DNA of 64,000 bases. It comes from Spirogloea muscicola. Its lineage: Eukaryota > Streptophyta > Zygnematophyceae > Spirogloeales > Spirogloeaceae. Positions 3,220 to 53,588 of the stretch are shown one piece after another. The notes beneath the pieces were generated by a model. That model was not told where the DNA came from. It ran no database searches and saw only the letters and a list, made by a program, of their open reading frames with translations. Location of the stretch: assembly GCA_009602725.1 (NCBI GenBank), contig WELB01000149.1, positions 27,109-91,108 of the forward strand, read 5' to 3'. Position 1 is the stretch's first letter. Each line of letters begins with the position of its first letter. Both the position numbers and the translations under genes were made by a program.

Positions 3220-4026
3220 TCAGTAATCTCTAGTCAGGAGATGCAAGTCTGAGTAGCTAGCCGGGGGAAAGACATCGCCCTGACGGAAGCCGGAGGCCGC
3301 CGCCAAAGCTCTGCCTGCGCGCAAGTGGACCGCGAACGCAAGTGACCGCTGAAGCGAGACGGCCAACCGCATGCGGAAGACCTTCGCAAGGGACCCGGCG
3401 ACATTGAAGCCGGGCTGCTCGCCCTGCTGCCCGTGGCGGCGGGCCGCGGCCTGCTGCGCCAGGCGGTGAAGCAAGTCGAGCCACTTTGCGCCGAAGGCCC
3501 CGTGTACGTTGACTGCAAGGGGAACAAAGTCGTCGCCCATCGGGTGGTCTGCGTATTTACGTTCCTTGGCGTCCGCCGCTTGGCGGATTGCGTAGTTCGC
3601 CTCCTCCGACGATCGCTTGGCGCTGCCGGAGACAACGCAGTCAGTCGTGATCACATCGGCGATGAGCCGAGGCCCCCCGCCGAGCGCGCTGGCGACGAGA
3701 TCGGCCCGCCGGGTGTGGACGCGGCCATCCGACCGAGCGATCGGAGGCATGATGCTGGTACTTTCGAGCGCCACCGAGTAACCGGCCTCGACGCAGATTC
3801 CATACATGGCGTTCCGCAGCAAGTCGTGTGTTCCTGTCTGCTCCCCGCCCCGTGCGCACCTGAGCATGTGAGCTGCCAGCGATGCCGCGTCTGAACCGCG
3901 CTCCCCGCATTCACGCTGCTGTACTCCAGTGAGGCAGGGTGGGTGGAGGCCGAGGAGGCGGTGCACCGCCGTACGGAAGGCGGCATCGGGCATTCGCAGC
4001 GCATCATGGATCGGCAGGGCAGACAA
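3220..4026 (-). mobile_element. Retroelement C-terminal ORF: CCHC knuckle plus endonuclease-like core
   Basis: A 268-residue open frame and the best-preserved fragment of the dispersed family. In order: a Cys-rich knuckle at about residues 38-58 (ECGERG, then AHMLRC), followed by HDLLRNAM; then RRADLVA and GGGPRLIADVITTD at about residues 104-126, which look like the acidic core of PD-(D/E)XK folds; then KYADHP, VHGAFGAKWLDLLHRLA; then a conserved C-terminal block with HLRAGRALAAASG and SYSDLHLLTRDY before the stop. The knuckle-then-RLE order is that of site-specific LINE C-termini (R2/NeSL/CRE type). No reverse transcriptase lies upstream, so this is a 5'-truncated copy. Function is inferred from motifs only. 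Confidence 0.6.
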
Positions 4027-4071
4027 CCAAGCTGCCGCCCCAGGTGAGGATGCCGAGTGAGCAACAGCAGG

Positions 4072-4500: not shown

Positions 4501-4529
4501 CGCCGCCGGGCGGGATAGAAAGAAAGAAG

Positions 4530-4700
4530 TGGCACTCCCAATGGGGGCAAGGGCTGCGAAAAGCCAGCCCAAAAAGAATTCACAAAGGTTCAGAAAAGGA
4601 AAGGGCTCGCCCATTGAGGATAGGGGCTGGACAAGCCAGCCCAAAAAAGAATGAACAAAGAACGAGAAGGGGGCCAGAGGAAGCCAGAGGAAGCGCTAAG
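4530..4700 (-). mobile_element. Two tandem hairpin tails (type II then type I)
   Basis: About 4530-4590 holds the type II tail (GTGGCACTCCCAATGGGGGC, then GGGCTGCGAAAAGCCAGCCC). 4607-4680 holds type I (GGGCTCGCCCATTGAGGAT, then GGGGCTGGACAAGCCAGCCC). They share layout but differ in the terminal box, which defines two tail types. Confidence 0.75.
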
Positions 4701-19859: not shown

Positions 19860-20360
19860 CATGGCACGGCCTGCCCGCAAATGCACGGCGTGAGCCTGGG
19901 ACCGTTGGACGCTTTTGGGACAGCGGTTTTCGGACCCTTCGGACCCATGGACATATACGGCGGCTACGGAACGAAGTGGTCTTCCCTACTCCATCGCCTG
20001 GCACTGCATGTAGATGCCCGCCGACGTAGTCGGGCGGGTAGCTTAGGCCATTCTAGCGTCCCGCAAGCCATCTTTGCATGCTATAGAATGAGGCTATCAT
20101 TGAGTCTGCAGTGCTCCCAGGCACTCGCATTTCACCAGCGCGCTGGTCGTGCATTAGCCCAGGCTAGTGGCTTCGGTGGTGGTGGTTTGGCTCCTCAGTA
20201 TAGCTTGTCAGATATGCATGTGCTCACTTGGGGATATTAGTGTCCCCCCTAGCCAGCTCATTACCCAGTTAACAGGACATTTGTAAGGCTGGAATTGGCC
20301 TCCCTTTCAATTTCATGCGCACCGCGCGCCTTCTTCTTCGGACCTTGTCCATCCTTGTAG
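19860..20360 (+). mobile_element. Retroelement 3' end, subfamily 3
   Basis: 19881-20240 reads to LHRLALHVDARRRSR, RMRLSLSLQCSQALAFHQR, AGRALAQASG and SLSDMHVLTWGY then a stop. The 3' tract includes AGCCAGCTCATTACCCAG and GAATTGGCCTCCCTTTCAAT. That tract recurs at 33460-33605 with two insertions and, in part, at 1904-1945. Confidence 0.6.
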
Positions 20361-22170: not shown

Positions 22171-23092
22171 GCCACTTAGGTCGCTGTGTGCTTTGGCGCT
22201 TTCCTGGCCCCTTCGAACTTCGTTCATTCATTTTCCTGGGCTGGTCGATCACAGCCATCGCCCTCTTCTGGAAGCTTTGATTCGCCCCCTTTGGAAGAGC
22301 CACATTCTTTTTTGACAGCCATCGGCCCCTGTTGAGAACTTCGTGTGCCCTTTCCGTTGTAGAAAGCCAGCCAGAAAGAATGGACAAGATTCAAAGGGCC
22401 GAATGGGAAGTGGCTCCGCAAAAGGGGGGAAGGGCGGTGAACAGCTAGCCCGAAATGAAGACGAGGTCCGAAGGGGCCAGAAGCGCTTTCTCAAAGCTTG
22501 CCCGGTACGAGTGTTCACGTAGTAACTTCTAATGAGGAGCCACAAACCAGAAAGACTAGCAGTTGGAGAGCAATCCCCCTGACGAAAGCGAGAGGCTGCA
22601 GCTAGAGCACGGCCAGCACGCCGATGCAGGCGTGGGCTCCGCTAACGTGATATGGATGGGCGCATTTGAAAGACCTGGTGCTAGCGAGCCAGCCTGAAGG
22701 CGCCTAAAACCACATAGCTATGCAAGAGACTACAGCGGATGGGAACATAATAACTTCGAGTTAGCAGCATCAAGTCGGAGTAGGTTGCAGCTGGAATAGA
22801 GGCACCTCGACGAGACCCTGAAGCAGCAGCCATAGCAGCAGCTACAGCGCATTCCGCGCATTCACGGTCAGATTTTGGTCGAAGCTGGTAAACAATATGT
22901 TAGGCCACATGGTCCACGTGGCCACCACGGTGCTAACGACTTGCTGAGCCGTCATTTGATTATGTAATCGTGATCACCGAGCGATTCACCTCGCCCGCCG
23001 CCACATCCTCTCTGTCCCTCCCCTCACTTTCTCGGCCGCCGAGGACCCACGTGGTCCCTACCCTCACTGGGCGAGCCCTTCTATATAGAAGA

Positions 23093-23180
23093 AAGTGCTC
23101 GCCCATTGAGAATAGGGGCTGGAACAACCAGCCCGAAAAAGAATGAACAGAGTACGAGAAGGGGGCCAGGGGAAGCGCTA
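23093..23180 (-). mobile_element. Hairpin tail module, type I
   Basis: GTGCTCGCCCATTGAGAAT, GGGGCTGGAACAACCAGCCC, A run, GAATGAACAGAG, then the AGAAGGGGGCC tract. Confidence 0.75.
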
Positions 23181-23942: not shown

Positions 23943-24773
23943 CTTTCCTCCNNNNNNNNNNNNNNNNNNNNNNNNNNNNNNNNNNNNNNNNNNNNNNNNN
24001 NNNNNNNNNNNNNNNNNNNNNNNNNNNNNNNNNNNNNNNNNNNNNNNNNNNNNNNNNNNNNNNNNNNNNNNNNNNNNNNNNNNNNNNNNNNNNNNNNNNN
24101 NNNNNNNNNNNNNNNNNNNNNNNNNNNNNNNNNNNNNNNNNNNNNNNNNNNNNNNNNNNNNNNNNNNNNNNNNNNNNNNNNNNNNNNNNNNNNNNNNNNN
24201 NNNNNNNNNNNNNNNNNNNNNNNNNNNNNNNNNNNNNNNNNNNNNNNNNNNNNNNNNNNNNNNNNNNNNNNNNNNNNNNNNNNNNNNNNNNNNNNNNNNN
24301 NNNNNNNNNNNNNNNNNNNNNNNNNNNNNNNNNNNNNNNNNNNNNNNNNNNNNNNNNNNNNNNNNNNNNNNNNNNNNNNNNNNNNNNNNNNNNNNNNNNN
24401 NNNNNNNNNNNNNNNNNNNNNNNNNNNNNNNNNNNNNNNNNNNNNNNNNNNNNNNNNNNNNNNNNNNNNNNNNNNNNNNNNNNNNNNNNNNNNNNNNNNN
24501 NNNNNNNNNNNNNNNNNNNNNNNNNNNNNNNNNNNNNNNNNNNNNNNNNNNNNNNNNNNNNNNNNNNNNNNNNNNNNNNNNNNNNNNNNNNNNNNNNNNN
24601 NNNNNNNNNNNNNNNNNNNNNNNNNNNNNNNNNNNNNNNNNNNNNNNNNNNNNNNNNNNNNNNNNNNNNNNNNNNNNNNNNNNNNNNNNNNNNNNNNNNN
24701 NNNNNNNNNNNNNNNNNNNNNNNNNNNNNNNNNNNNNNNNNNNNNNNNNNNNNNNNNNNNNNNNNNNNNNNNN

Positions 24774-33294: not shown

Positions 33295-33354
33295 GGCCTG
33301 GCCAAGTGGCCGCCGTTGCTGGAAGGCCTTAGCTTCTCGTACTTTGTTCATTCT

Positions 33355-33660
33355 TTCATTCTGGTCGTGCATTAGCCCAGGCTAATGGCTTCCGTGGAGG
33401 TGGTTCGGCTCCTCAGTAGCTTGTCAGATATGCATGTGCTTACTCGGGGATATTAGCGTCCCCCTTAGCCAGCTCATTACCCAATTTTTTGGGCTGGCTT
33501 TTCGCAGCCATTGCCCCCATTGGGAGTGCCACTTCTCTGATTAACAGGACATTTGTAAGGCTAGAATTGGCCTCCCTTTCAATTTCATGCGCACCGCGCG
33601 CCTTCTTTTTTGGGCTGGTTTTTCCAGCCCCTATCCTCAATGGGCGAGCCCTTCTCTGCC
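33355..33660 (+). mobile_element. Subfamily-3 3' tract carrying two hairpin-tail insertions
   Basis: Compared with the uninterrupted copy at 20155-20340, a 57-bp segment is inserted at 33484-33540 (T run, GGGCTGGCTTTTCGCAGCC, CCCCATTGGGAGTGCCACTT, CTCTGA). A second tail, type I, starts near 33606. The first insertion has no target duplication that I can see. Confidence 0.75.
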
Positions 33661-33714
33661 TGGCGCTTCCCGTTGTGCCCGACCGTCAGGTAGGCAGTAG
33701 GCGAGAAAGAAATG

Positions 33715-34640
33715 AATTGAAAGGGCTCGCCCATTGAGGATAGGGGCTGGACAAGCCAGCCCAAAAAAGAATGAACAAAGAACGATAAGGGGGCCAGAGG
33801 AAGCCAGAGGAAGCGCTAAGAAAGACGAAACAGCTTTCCCAATTACAATCCAGGGGACCCACTTCCAGGAGCCCAGCATCTCTGATCTGCGGCTGCTTAG
33901 CAGGGGTTACTGAGTGTCTCGTAGCAGCTTTGTTTCTGTTACTTAGCGCTTCCCCTGGCCCCCTTCTCGTACTCTGTTCATTCTTTTTCGGGCTGGTTGT
34001 TCCAGCCCCTATTCTCAGTGGGCGAGCACTTTCTTCTTTCCCAATTAGAAGAAAGGGCTCGCCCATTGAGGATAGGGGCTGGACAAGCCAGCCCAAAAAA
34101 GAATGAAAAAAGAACGAGAAGGGGGCCAGAGGAAGCCAGAGGAAGCGCTAAGAAACCAAAGCACACAAAGAAAGAAAGCAGCTACAAATTACTCAGTAAC
34201 CCCTGCTAAGCAGCCGCAAATCAGAGAGGCTAGGGTCCTGGAAGTGGGTCCCAATTTCCCAATTTGCCTCGCGGGCCGGCCACGCTGCCTCGAAGGCCGC
34301 TCGCTGCAAGGCGGCCAAGCACTCCGACCACCCACCTGCCGACGAGTTCGTCTCCCTTGGCGGTGGACGTGCACGGGGCTCTTGGGTCCCAGTGGCTTGA
34401 CCTATTGGCTAGGCTTGCGCGGCGGGCGCGGCTGGCCCCCTTCTCGTTCTTTGTTCATTCTTTTTTGGGCTGGCTTGTCCAGCCCCTATCCTCAATGGGC
34501 GAGCCCTTTCTTCTTGTGTCGAAAGAAGTGGCACTCCCAATGGGGGCAAGGGCTGCGAAAAGCCAGCCCAAAAAGAATTCACAAAGGTTCAGAGGGGCCT
34601 AAAAGCGGTGAGCAGCTACAAAGGGGCCTGAGGATGCAAT
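33715..34640. mobile_element. Dense mosaic of hairpin tails in alternating orientation
   Basis: Reverse tails at 33722-33800 and 34056-34140, forward at 33975-34035 and 34452-34515, reverse type II at 34526-34600. Between them are ORF-end fragments (SLICGCLAGVTE type) and a piece reading DEFVSLGGGRARG at about 34335. Module joints repeatedly show CCCAATT (about 33480, 33839, 34039, 34252, 34260). Confidence 0.7.
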
Positions 34641-34654
34641 GGTAAAACAGGGGG

Positions 34655-35360
34655 AGGATGGATCACTCAATAAGTACGAGTGAGGAGCCTCAGATCCGAC
34701 AGACTAGCGGCCGGGAAGCTATCACCCTGACGAAAGCCAGAGCCCGCAGCGAGAGCACGGCCAGCTCGCAGATGCAGAGCGTGGGCCATGGACCGCTGCA
34801 GGGATACAGAGAGGCGCATCCGATCTCAGGCTATTGTCCTACTGCTGTTAAGTGGGCGCGCTTGACTGATCATTGCTGCTGCGCTGTCTCATTTTTGTAA
34901 AAGTAAGCCCCAGCTGATGTTATGCAGGATGGCCGCCTATCAGCCACAGCTCTTCGTACAGAAGCACTTCTACCCTTTCAATGGGGGCTTAGAGACTCAT
35001 GCCCGTCACACCTCCATGAATTTGCATGTGATATGTTCTGGGCTGGCCATGCACAGCCTCTTGAGCACTTCACGCTCGGTGGCTCGAGCTCCTGCACTGG
35101 CTAGCGCGCAGCGCGGTCTCCCAACCTCACCAAGGGGAGCAGGCTGACTTGAAGGCAGCTGGCTCTCGCGTCCAGGTGTATCGCATGCGCCTGTCAAAAT
35201 CGCTGCAGCCGTCGATGGCACACGCATTGCATCTACGTGCCGGTCGCGCTTTGGCTGCAGCCTCTGGTCATAGACATGGGACTTCTTCCCGGAGACTATT
35301 TTCTCTGACCTGCGGCTGCTCACCAGAGGATGTTGAGCACTCAGTGACCACTTGAGTCTC
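34655..35360. mobile_element. Retroelement fragments on both strands
   Basis: 34690-34830 is a minus-strand C-terminal block. 34925-35355 is plus-strand, with LRTEALLPFQWGLRD, QADLKAAGSRVQVYRMRLSK, LHLRAGRALAAASG and a terminus at about 35335-35355. 35360-35640 shows nothing recognisable. Confidence 0.5.
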
Positions 35361-35639: not shown

Positions 35640-36665
35640 GAATGCATGAATGAAGACCTCTTCAGGATTGAGCCGTCAGCAATAGCCATGACTGAAGATG
35701 GCTCGGAACTGACGGTAGAACGATGCTGAGTGATGCTGCTAATGTGCGGCGTAAGGGCTGCCATGGATGCGCCAAAAAATCCAGCCCAGTGCTTGTCAGC
35801 AAANACGTGTGTAGCCTAGATTGGCAATGTTTTGGAGGAGGGTGTGGAAACGAGGACCCAGACAACCAAAGACGTCGATTGCCGCTGGCAGGAGCTGATC
35901 GCATTAAGGGTAGTCGGAGTAATGCTGCAGCTTTCTTTGTTCTGCAACGCCCACTGCTTGACCAGCGATGTGTGTGGATGCTGGTCCCTTGTACGCCTCC
36001 GTTACCACGACGTCGACCAGGGCCCGTGGTCCTCCACCAGGTTGCACGCCCACAATGTCAAGTGTGCGGCGATGATGACGTCCCTGGGCGTCCGTGGTGA
36101 TAGTCATGATATCGTTGACTTCCACGACTGCACGGTAGCCGGCGTCGCGCATCAAACCCGCCAGGGCATCGCGGAGGAGGTTGTGGATGCCCACCACTTC
36201 TGGCCCAGTGGGGCATCTCAGCATGTGAGTGGCGAGCTCAGCACCCTCTGCACGGAAGCCGCACTCGCACTGCCGCACCCCGATCAGGCAGTTAGGTGGG
36301 AGGCCGAGGAAGAGTTGAAGCGAAGTCCGAAAGGCCTTGGAGCTGATGCTGAAGGCGTTGGCGACGGCGTGAGAGGTGATCCAATCCGTGGCACCAGGTG
36401 CGGCTAGAGAAGTAAGTCTTGCCAGGCTCCTTGGATTGTTCTCAATCTCTGGCAGCCTCCTCAACCTTCTGCGGCGCTCGTCTTCCACTGCCGTAACCAG
36501 TCTGGATTGTGCCCCTCGATCAGCAGCTTGGGCGATGGCGGAGAATGGCGTGAGCAGGGGTTGGAGAGAGGGGAAGAGCCGATGGCTGAGTCGCAAATGC
36601 TCCTCAGATCCTCTTGGAAGGGGAAGGGGCCTTCCTCCACATGGCGTACAGGGTCGTGGAGGCAA
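35640..36665 (-). mobile_element. Retroelement C-terminal ORF with knuckle and endonuclease-like core
   Basis: 35904-36665 is open for 253 residues and reaches further upstream than the other copies. Seen: SLARLTSLAAPGATDWITS (the linker usually found just before the knuckle), LFLGLPPNCLIGVRQCECG, THMLRCPTGPEVVGIHNLL, MRDAGYRAVVEVND, HHRRTLDIVGVQPGG, RALVDVVVTEAYKG, HYSDYP. After a frameshift at about 35900 it continues to an unknown base at 35804. The knuckle and core are intact in frame, so it is a good query for finding full-length elements. Confidence 0.6.
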
Positions 36666-36799
36666 GGAAAGCGCATGGGTATCAGAGAGGCGATCTGGTG
36701 CCAGCAGCCCAGGAAAGCTGCTTGCGCCGTCTGCTCCAATGACCGGCAGCCAAGGCCGCCCATGCGGGTGGGAAGGGAGGCCTGGAGGGAAGCTGCAGC

Positions 36800-37560
36800 T
36801 GAGGGGAGCTCGCCCATTGAGGATGGGAGCTGGAACAGCCAGCCCAAAAAAGAACTGCTTAGCAGGGGTTACTGAGTAGTTAGTAGCTGCTTTGTTTCTT
36901 CTTGTGTGCTTCTTTCTTAGTGCTTCGCCAAAGAAGGACTACTCTACCAAACACAACATCACACTAGGGAAGCTCAATACCCACGAGTGAGCAACAGCAG
37001 GTCAGAATAGCTCGATGCGGGGAAGGAGGCGCTCCGCGAGAGTGGCGAGCCCAAAGAGAAGAACGACGAATTTGGCTCTTCCACACAAGAAACAGCTCTT
37101 ACGAATGGAAAAATGTCTTATTCCAGAAGAGGCCGACGGCTGTGATCGGCCAGCCAGAAATAAACTATACAAAGTATGAAGGAGCCAGAAGAAGAAAAAG
37201 CGTTCGAGGAAGAACTGCTGACTCAGCTGCTGACTCGGGGCTAAGAAGCTCCCATTCATTCGTGGTCTCTTGCATTACTATAGCACAGTGCGACTCATTA
37301 CCTGAACAATGTCTTGACTCAGGTGGCCCCTGCTCAATTGTCTTCCTGCTCAATATCCCCTGTTGACAGACCAACGGCGCCAGCAAGGCAGGCGCTAGCC
37401 TGTGCTGCTGCAAAGGCAACACAACGTTTGAATGCACCTTTGTCTACACGGAAAGAGCTCGCCCATTGAGGACAGGGGCTGGAACAACCAGCCCAAAAAA
37501 GAATGAACAAAGTACGAGAAGGGGGCCAGGGAAGCGCTAAGAAAAACAAGCACAAGAAGA
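36800..37560 (-). mobile_element. Hairpin tails and decayed fragments
   Basis: Type I tails at 36808-36860 and 37455-37530. The sequence between them includes a tract at 36985-37030 nearly identical to 4050-4095 (subfamily 1 terminus, DLLLLTRG/SLCG type). No host gene seen. Confidence 0.55.
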
Positions 37561-37925
37561 AACAAAGCAGCTACGAAACACTCAGCTACACCGCTGGCTC
37601 GTGGGCTCAAGTCTATCGTATGAGATTGTCGGTCTCCCTCCAGCGGTCCCTGGCCCAAGCCTTGCATCTGCGTGCTGGCCGTACTCTCACTGCGGCCTCC
37701 GGCTTTCGTCAGGGGGATAGTTTCCAGCAGCTAGTCTGTCGGATCTGAGGCTCCTCACTCGTAACTACTGAGTGGTCCATCCTCCCCCAGTTCTGATATA
37801 GCTTCTTCAGGCCCCTTCGTAGCTGCTAAGCGTTCTTGACCCCTTCGCACTCTTGTCAATTCTTTTCGGGCTGGCTTTTCCCAGCCCTTGCCCCCATTGG
37901 GAGTGCCACTTCTCTCTTTGTCTAG
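37560..37925 (+). mobile_element. Retroelement 3' end with type II tail
   Basis: AGSWAQVYRMRLSVSLQRSL, ALHLRAGRTLTAASGFRQG, then a frameshifted terminus, 3' tract, and tail at 37855-37912 ending GGGAGTGCCACTTCT. It shows ORF end and type II tail in one element. 37926-38540 holds only debris. Confidence 0.6.
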
Positions 37926-53139: not shown

Positions 53140-53588
53140 GATGGCCATGCAGGCGAGGCGGTCACCGTGAGGCAGCGGCTCAAGCTCGGCGGCGCCCGCG
53201 GCGTCGGCCTGCTGCCCGCCGCCATTGCCGTCGACCTGCCCAAACCACGGCAGTGAATGTGGCGCCTCAGTAGGGGCTCGCCGTAAGTTGCGGCCAGCGC
53301 TGGCGCTCGTGGCGGCGCCGCGGCGGCGACGAGGCCGCCGGCAGCGGTGTGGCGAGCGAGCGCCGTCGCAATAAGGTGATGGCCGACGACGACGTCGCCG
53401 CCGTTGAGCGTAGTGGCGGCGACGGCAGCGGCGGGGGCTAACCTCGCCGCCGAGAGCGTCGCCGGAGGCGGCCAGAGACCGTGCGCCGCCGCTGCCGCCG
53501 CCGCCGNNNNNNNNNNNNNNNNNNNNNNNNNNNNNNNNNNNNNNNNNNNNNNNNNCGGCGCGGCCGCCGCGCATGCTCGCCGCCGCAT

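Follow-up and report, generated by a model that had tools for sequence, protein, structure and literature searches.

A 57-bp hairpin insert in Spirogloea muscicola is very probably the extremely 5′-truncated end of a LINE-like retrotransposon

Analysis of a 64,000-nucleotide stretch of the Spirogloea muscicola assembly (153 Mb, 471 contigs), hereafter the window (C149:27109-91108, with a G+C content of 54.8%), indicated that a 57-bp hairpin insert very probably represents the 3′ terminus of a LINE-like (non-LTR) retrotransposon of high copy number, extremely 5′-truncated to 53-57 nt, and probably not a separate mobile unit. The truncation most likely arose by target-primed reverse transcription. 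Within the window, 23952-24773 and 53507-53555 read N. The insert, its host tract and the related copies in the window are as follows.

33484..33540, + strand: focal insert, 57 bp, best read as 53 nt at 33487-33539 with ATT/ATT flanks
33360..33610, + strand: host tract of the focal insert, the 3′ portion of a different repeat family, with the end ...CGCGCGCCTTCT
20143..20338, + strand: paralogous tract with an empty site at 20260-20276, from sequence comparison with 33360-33610
33605..33656, + strand: second tail stub, of the GGGCGAGCCCTTCT subfamily, on the TTCT end of the focal host tract
4520..4594, − strand: truncated copy of ~75 nt, sharing 98% identity with the focal insert across 51 bp
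34519..34868, − strand: longer copy of the focal-insert subfamily that extends into the coding sequence (model columns 45-398)
37586..37919, + strand: longer copy of the focal-insert subfamily that extends into the coding sequence (model columns 64-399)

The host tract is unbroken at 20260-20276, where it reads ATTACCCAGTTAACAGG, and is split at 33476-33548, where ATTACCCA is followed by the 57 bp (33484-33540) and then by TTAACAGG. The two parts of the split tract are 91% and 97% identical to 20143-20270 and 20269-20338 of the intact copy, respectively. A genome-wide search using the intact tract as the query yielded 40 scored copies of this family among 1848 candidates, including those in the window, and the empty site was seen in 21 records, namely the copy at 20.1 kb in the window and 20 other loci. 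These 21 records confirm the preliminary description, in which a 57-bp insert splits a tract that occurs unbroken elsewhere; it also placed the empty site correctly, although its bounds (20261-20275) have to be widened to 20260-20276. The insert itself is 98% identical over 51 bp to 4525-4575 and 34524-34574 of the window, and the matches of both tract and insert are far above chance. Moreover, the 19-mer GGGCTGGCTTTTCNCAGCC of the insert family occurs at 2674 places in the 153-Mb assembly, compared to 0 for the reversed word. An assembly artefact at 33484-33540 is extremely improbable, as the site lies ~60 kb into a 371-kb contig and comparable insertions are present on other contigs.

Intact occurrences number 15 for CATTACCCAATTAACAGG, which represents the A form of the target, and 256 for the G form; among the examined records, the A form was found at one of 22 intact sites (L066). 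An A-form target leaves a 53-nt insert at 33487-33539 with ATT on both sides (33484-33486 and 33540-33542). Given a G-to-A variant of the target, the focal insert fits 53 nt plus a 3-bp ATT duplication, three bases alone being no proof of it. The initial interpretation of no duplication and one lost G is an admissible reading, but not the only one, since the A-form target gives ATT/ATT.

Comparison of 123 oriented copies with a near-complete tail revealed a common 3′ end and differing 5′ ends; these copies are no random sample, because their loci were partly chosen by the hairpin. The common 3′ end is composed of the hairpin, followed by a box that ends in CTTCT, GGGAGTGCCACTTCT or GGGCGAGCCCTTCT or a variant, and a TTCT-rich tail. 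The stem-loop proposed from the single sequence can indeed be drawn, but folding z-scores of -0.68 to -1.52 (five copies folded) and a two-sided change in one of eight predicted pairs (30 sequences) lend weak support to it as an RNA structure. A search for covariation in the main stem among the 30 sequences found none, and the stem columns are almost invariant. The stem is conserved in sequence, and not demonstrably in structure. In Rfam, region 33300-34700 gave 24 matches up to E = 1, none of which reached the family gathering score; the great majority were to microRNA models and lie chiefly on palindromic neighbours, and the matches were taken as chance.

The longest copies extend upstream, crossing an untranslated stretch of ~90 nt and entering an open frame that ends with SDLRLLTRTY or a variant. 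We collected 23 non-redundant copies of the coding segment from loci other than the window, and sought the hairpin within 700 nt. It lies downstream of the last coding segment in 19 of them, at an offset of +175 to +191 in 17 copies, +224 in L006 and +252 in L045, the latter two being enlarged by inserts of 33 and 61 nt, respectively, duplications included. In the other four copies the hairpin was not found within 700 nt, one of these loci (L103) ending first. Judged by sequence, the insert derives from the 3′ end of an abundant LINE-like element; in the long copies L045, L047, L049, L053 and L124, the stretches preceding the coding segment read N. Five regions of the RVT_1 list (L039-L043) were also checked as parents with four tail queries, and all were rejected. 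L039, L041 and L042 gave no match to the tail queries, whereas the sole tail match of L040 is ~3.2 kb past the frame end. That of L043 is ~0.4 kb past a frame of the LTR-element type, presumably an integrase-type element by its motifs.

Two open frames in the window encode C-termini of this kind.

3223..4071, − strand: C-terminus of a related element, with 65% identity over 278 residues with the L050 frame, covering the last ~280 residues of the element
35907..36938, − strand: C-terminus of the same kind but more distant, with 38% identity to the L050 frame

In an alignment of six C-termini, the conserved residues are CxC...HxxxC, whose first part is missing from some rows, and RxD...DV...K, which we take to be typical of restriction-like-endonuclease LINEs. 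By motif reading alone, the C-terminus of the element would resemble those of such LINEs; it gave no match to Pfam or PDB profiles. A Pfam search with 20 frames of the window gave one match below the cut-off and otherwise none, and structure prediction for 3223-4071 (− strand) resulted in an unusable model with a mean pLDDT of 38.

With a 407-column model, lengths up to the end of the box were determined for 80 copies from the fixed list formed by the first 100 occurrences of the 19-mer. Seventy copies begin inside the model, one of which (L035) is cut by an N stretch so that its apparent start may not be its 5′ end, and the other 10 run on past the 5′ edge. The lengths span from 47 nt to beyond the model, with 11 copies below 60 nt and 45 below 100 nt; the ends of several of the shortest copies are uncertain because of divergent subfamilies and weak scores. 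The copies are distributed as follows.

40-49 nt, 3; 50-59 nt, 8; 60-69 nt, 4; 70-79 nt, 8
80-89 nt, 13; 90-99 nt, 9; 100-119 nt, 4; 120-149 nt, 4
150-199 nt, 7; 200-299 nt, 4; 300-387 nt, 6; longer, 10

The distribution is not perfectly smooth, with modest clusters at 75-89 nt (21/80) and 95-99 nt (8/80). At 5-nt resolution, there are four copies at 55-59 nt, eight each at 75-79, 80-84 and 95-99 nt, and five at 85-89 nt. As this sample is blind to copies shorter than the 19-mer plus the downstream box, a search with the box was added, which gave 165 copies. Among them, 42 begin fewer than 34 nt before the box, including 35 that reach at most 26 nt and are too short for a complete hairpin, the lowest-scoring ones being doubtful. 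In addition, genome-wide counts of 24-mers with up to two mismatches fall from 4537 for the box to 2335 for the hairpin, 1363 just upstream and 914 for the coding segment, with 0 for the reversed controls; only the direction of this fall counts, because the words differ in conservation. The preliminary description was right that the tail can occur without ORF sequence; a constant extension of the copies into coding sequence, its refuting condition, was not observed. However, the peak at 55-60 bp by which it would have recognised a discrete unit is absent, and its designation of the insert as such a unit is not borne out by the continuous spread of 5′ ends.

All-against-all comparison of the collected DNA gave 601 candidate insertion points, 328 of which passed the flank filters. 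Inserts of at most 140 nt were each listed once, and 14 were picked by eye: 10 of the hairpin family, two of the tract family and two that are not simple insertions (L026 and L064). Seven of the 10 hairpin-family insertions thus picked are flanked by target duplications of 6-11 bp; together with the focal copy they are listed below, whereas L098 and L027:1720 have no clear duplication.

L006: 9 bp, one mismatch
L012: 6 bp
L045: 11 bp
L027:1303: 8 bp
L099: 7 bp
L027:2444: 6 bp (the alignment overlap gave only 4)
L085: 7 bp, inside a pyrimidine tail and ambiguous
Focal copy: 3 bp

Some stubs flanked by duplications hold less than the hairpin, such as inserts of 24 and 31 nt with duplications of 9 bp (one mismatch) and 6 bp, respectively. 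The same insertion signs are seen in a second family, that of the focal host tract, with a 26-nt insert and an 8-bp duplication at L091:649, and a 94-nt insert and a 7-bp duplication at L048:998. At L099:241-361, one 7-bp duplication surrounds two tandem tails, the first of only ~30 nt, which could be a single event with template jumping. At L026 (~1256), a box of ~14-16 nt lies inside the coding segment, replacing ~28 nt of its paralogues.

These data bear on the other option raised for the insert, a discrete short mobile hairpin, either a SINE-like RNA or a ~57-bp miniature unit, that moves in trans on the LINE enzyme. Eight of the 80 copies at 50-59 nt and the nearly invariant stem columns in 30 copies would agree with it, and its best single case is L045, in which the hairpin insert of 50 nt, flanked by an 11-bp duplication, does not contain the usual 3′ box; the 3′ end is therefore not always identical. 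On the other hand, the four copies at 55-59 nt fall below the 75-79, 80-84, 85-89 and 95-99 nt bins; neither a uniform length nor a common 5′ end, as for a SINE or a discrete unit, was found among the 80 copies; stubs of 24 and 31 nt, smaller than the hairpin, carry duplications of their own; the box word is twice as frequent as the hairpin word, though their conservation may differ; and the main stem is free of two-sided changes. Altogether, a separately moving hairpin is very unlikely. The extreme 5′ truncation that was the alternative offered at the outset is supported by the 3′ end shared with coding copies, the spread 5′ ends and the duplications at other loci.

A TC-tail word is located within 12 nt upstream of 30 of the 70 truncated copies, compared to 18.4% of random positions (P = 2e-6), and TTCT within 10 nt of 13 of the 70, compared to 4.5% (P = 1.5e-5). 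Between model columns 250 and 350, 24 of 52 starts fall in pyrimidine words that cover 24% of the columns (P = 3e-4, to be read in the light of words chosen after the data were seen). Starts in pyrimidine words account for 13 of 24 tail-flanked copies and 13 of 46 others. At its upstream edge, the hairpin has a T run that resembles one of several joining points of this kind, and hairpin-sized stubs therefore need no separate mobile unit.

Close neighbours among the copies, 88 non-redundant pairs in total, are head-to-tail in 59 cases, tail-to-tail in 21 and head-to-head in eight; for pairs no more than 24 nt apart, the respective counts are 19, four and zero. The excess of head-to-tail pairs could result from later insertion into an old tail, or from template jumping in one event. 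Tail-to-tail pairs that are 8-15 nt apart form near-perfect palindromes at 33948-34136, 34432-34604 and 23056-23139. Such long palindromes in the window, as at 33948-34136, might suggest the end of a DNA transposon or a miniature inverted-repeat element, which we regard as hardly credible: by eye, the focal insert has no terminal inverted repeats, the duplications range between 6 and 11 bp, most close neighbours are arranged head-to-tail (59/88, and 19/23 at gaps of up to 24 nt), and the one-sided variation, with one end common and the other variable, already contradicts it.

We propose that the truncated insert arose as follows. The enzyme of the element would nick the DNA, and the freed DNA end would prime copying from the CUUCU tail of the RNA; copying would then halt within a few dozen bases, leaving a short cDNA to be joined upstream, often at pyrimidine-rich microhomology. 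In an unlikely extension of this scheme, the 75-89 nt and 95-99 nt clusters, together with hairpin-only inserts such as that of L045, would represent discrete short RNAs cut from the 3′ UTR and inserted in trans, their TTCT ends serving as the next targets in self-feeding head-to-tail arrays. If so, the element would keep seeding the genome with tail stubs via a self-feeding cycle.

Recognition of the insert as a LINE insertion that very probably stopped early would settle a misreading, as a coding-free hairpin insert resembles a new mobile unit. Moreover, the thousands of stubs, more than half of those sampled being shorter than 100 nt and many lying inside repeats whose empty sites are present, provide a natural data set for studying the 5′-end joining of new copies and the way in which reverse transcription comes to a stop.

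The copies resemble truncated R1 and R2 elements of Drosophila, which are described as having a fixed 3′ end, a variable 5′ end and, now and then, target deletions or duplications, with microhomology of 1-5 bases at most 5′ junctions of truncated R2 (PMC2718515). However, R2 occupies one site in the 28S rRNA genes, whereas the copies here are dispersed, and more than half of those sampled are shorter than 100 nt. Truncated human L1 is likewise associated with short target duplications and 5′-junction microhomology (PMC2912911), but its tail is poly(A), in contrast to the hairpin and TTCT repeats here. The stringent-type 3′ tails of LINEs and SINEs contain conserved stem-loops, including plant and green-algal cases (PMC3747384). 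They are similar in that the LINE ends with ~50 conserved nt in which a hairpin can be drawn; the tail here differs in a main stem without compensatory changes and in many stubs below 100 bp, compared to the 100-1000 bp given for truncated LINE members in the same review. No SINE head was recognised in the copies here. With the restriction-like-endonuclease LINEs R2, R4, CRE, NeSL and HERO, the element may be compared through its CxC...HxxxC and RxD...DV...K residues, by motif reading alone. Some HERO families are reported to target microsatellites (PMC4640811), which is reminiscent of the TTCT tails that are frequent upstream neighbours of the copies here.
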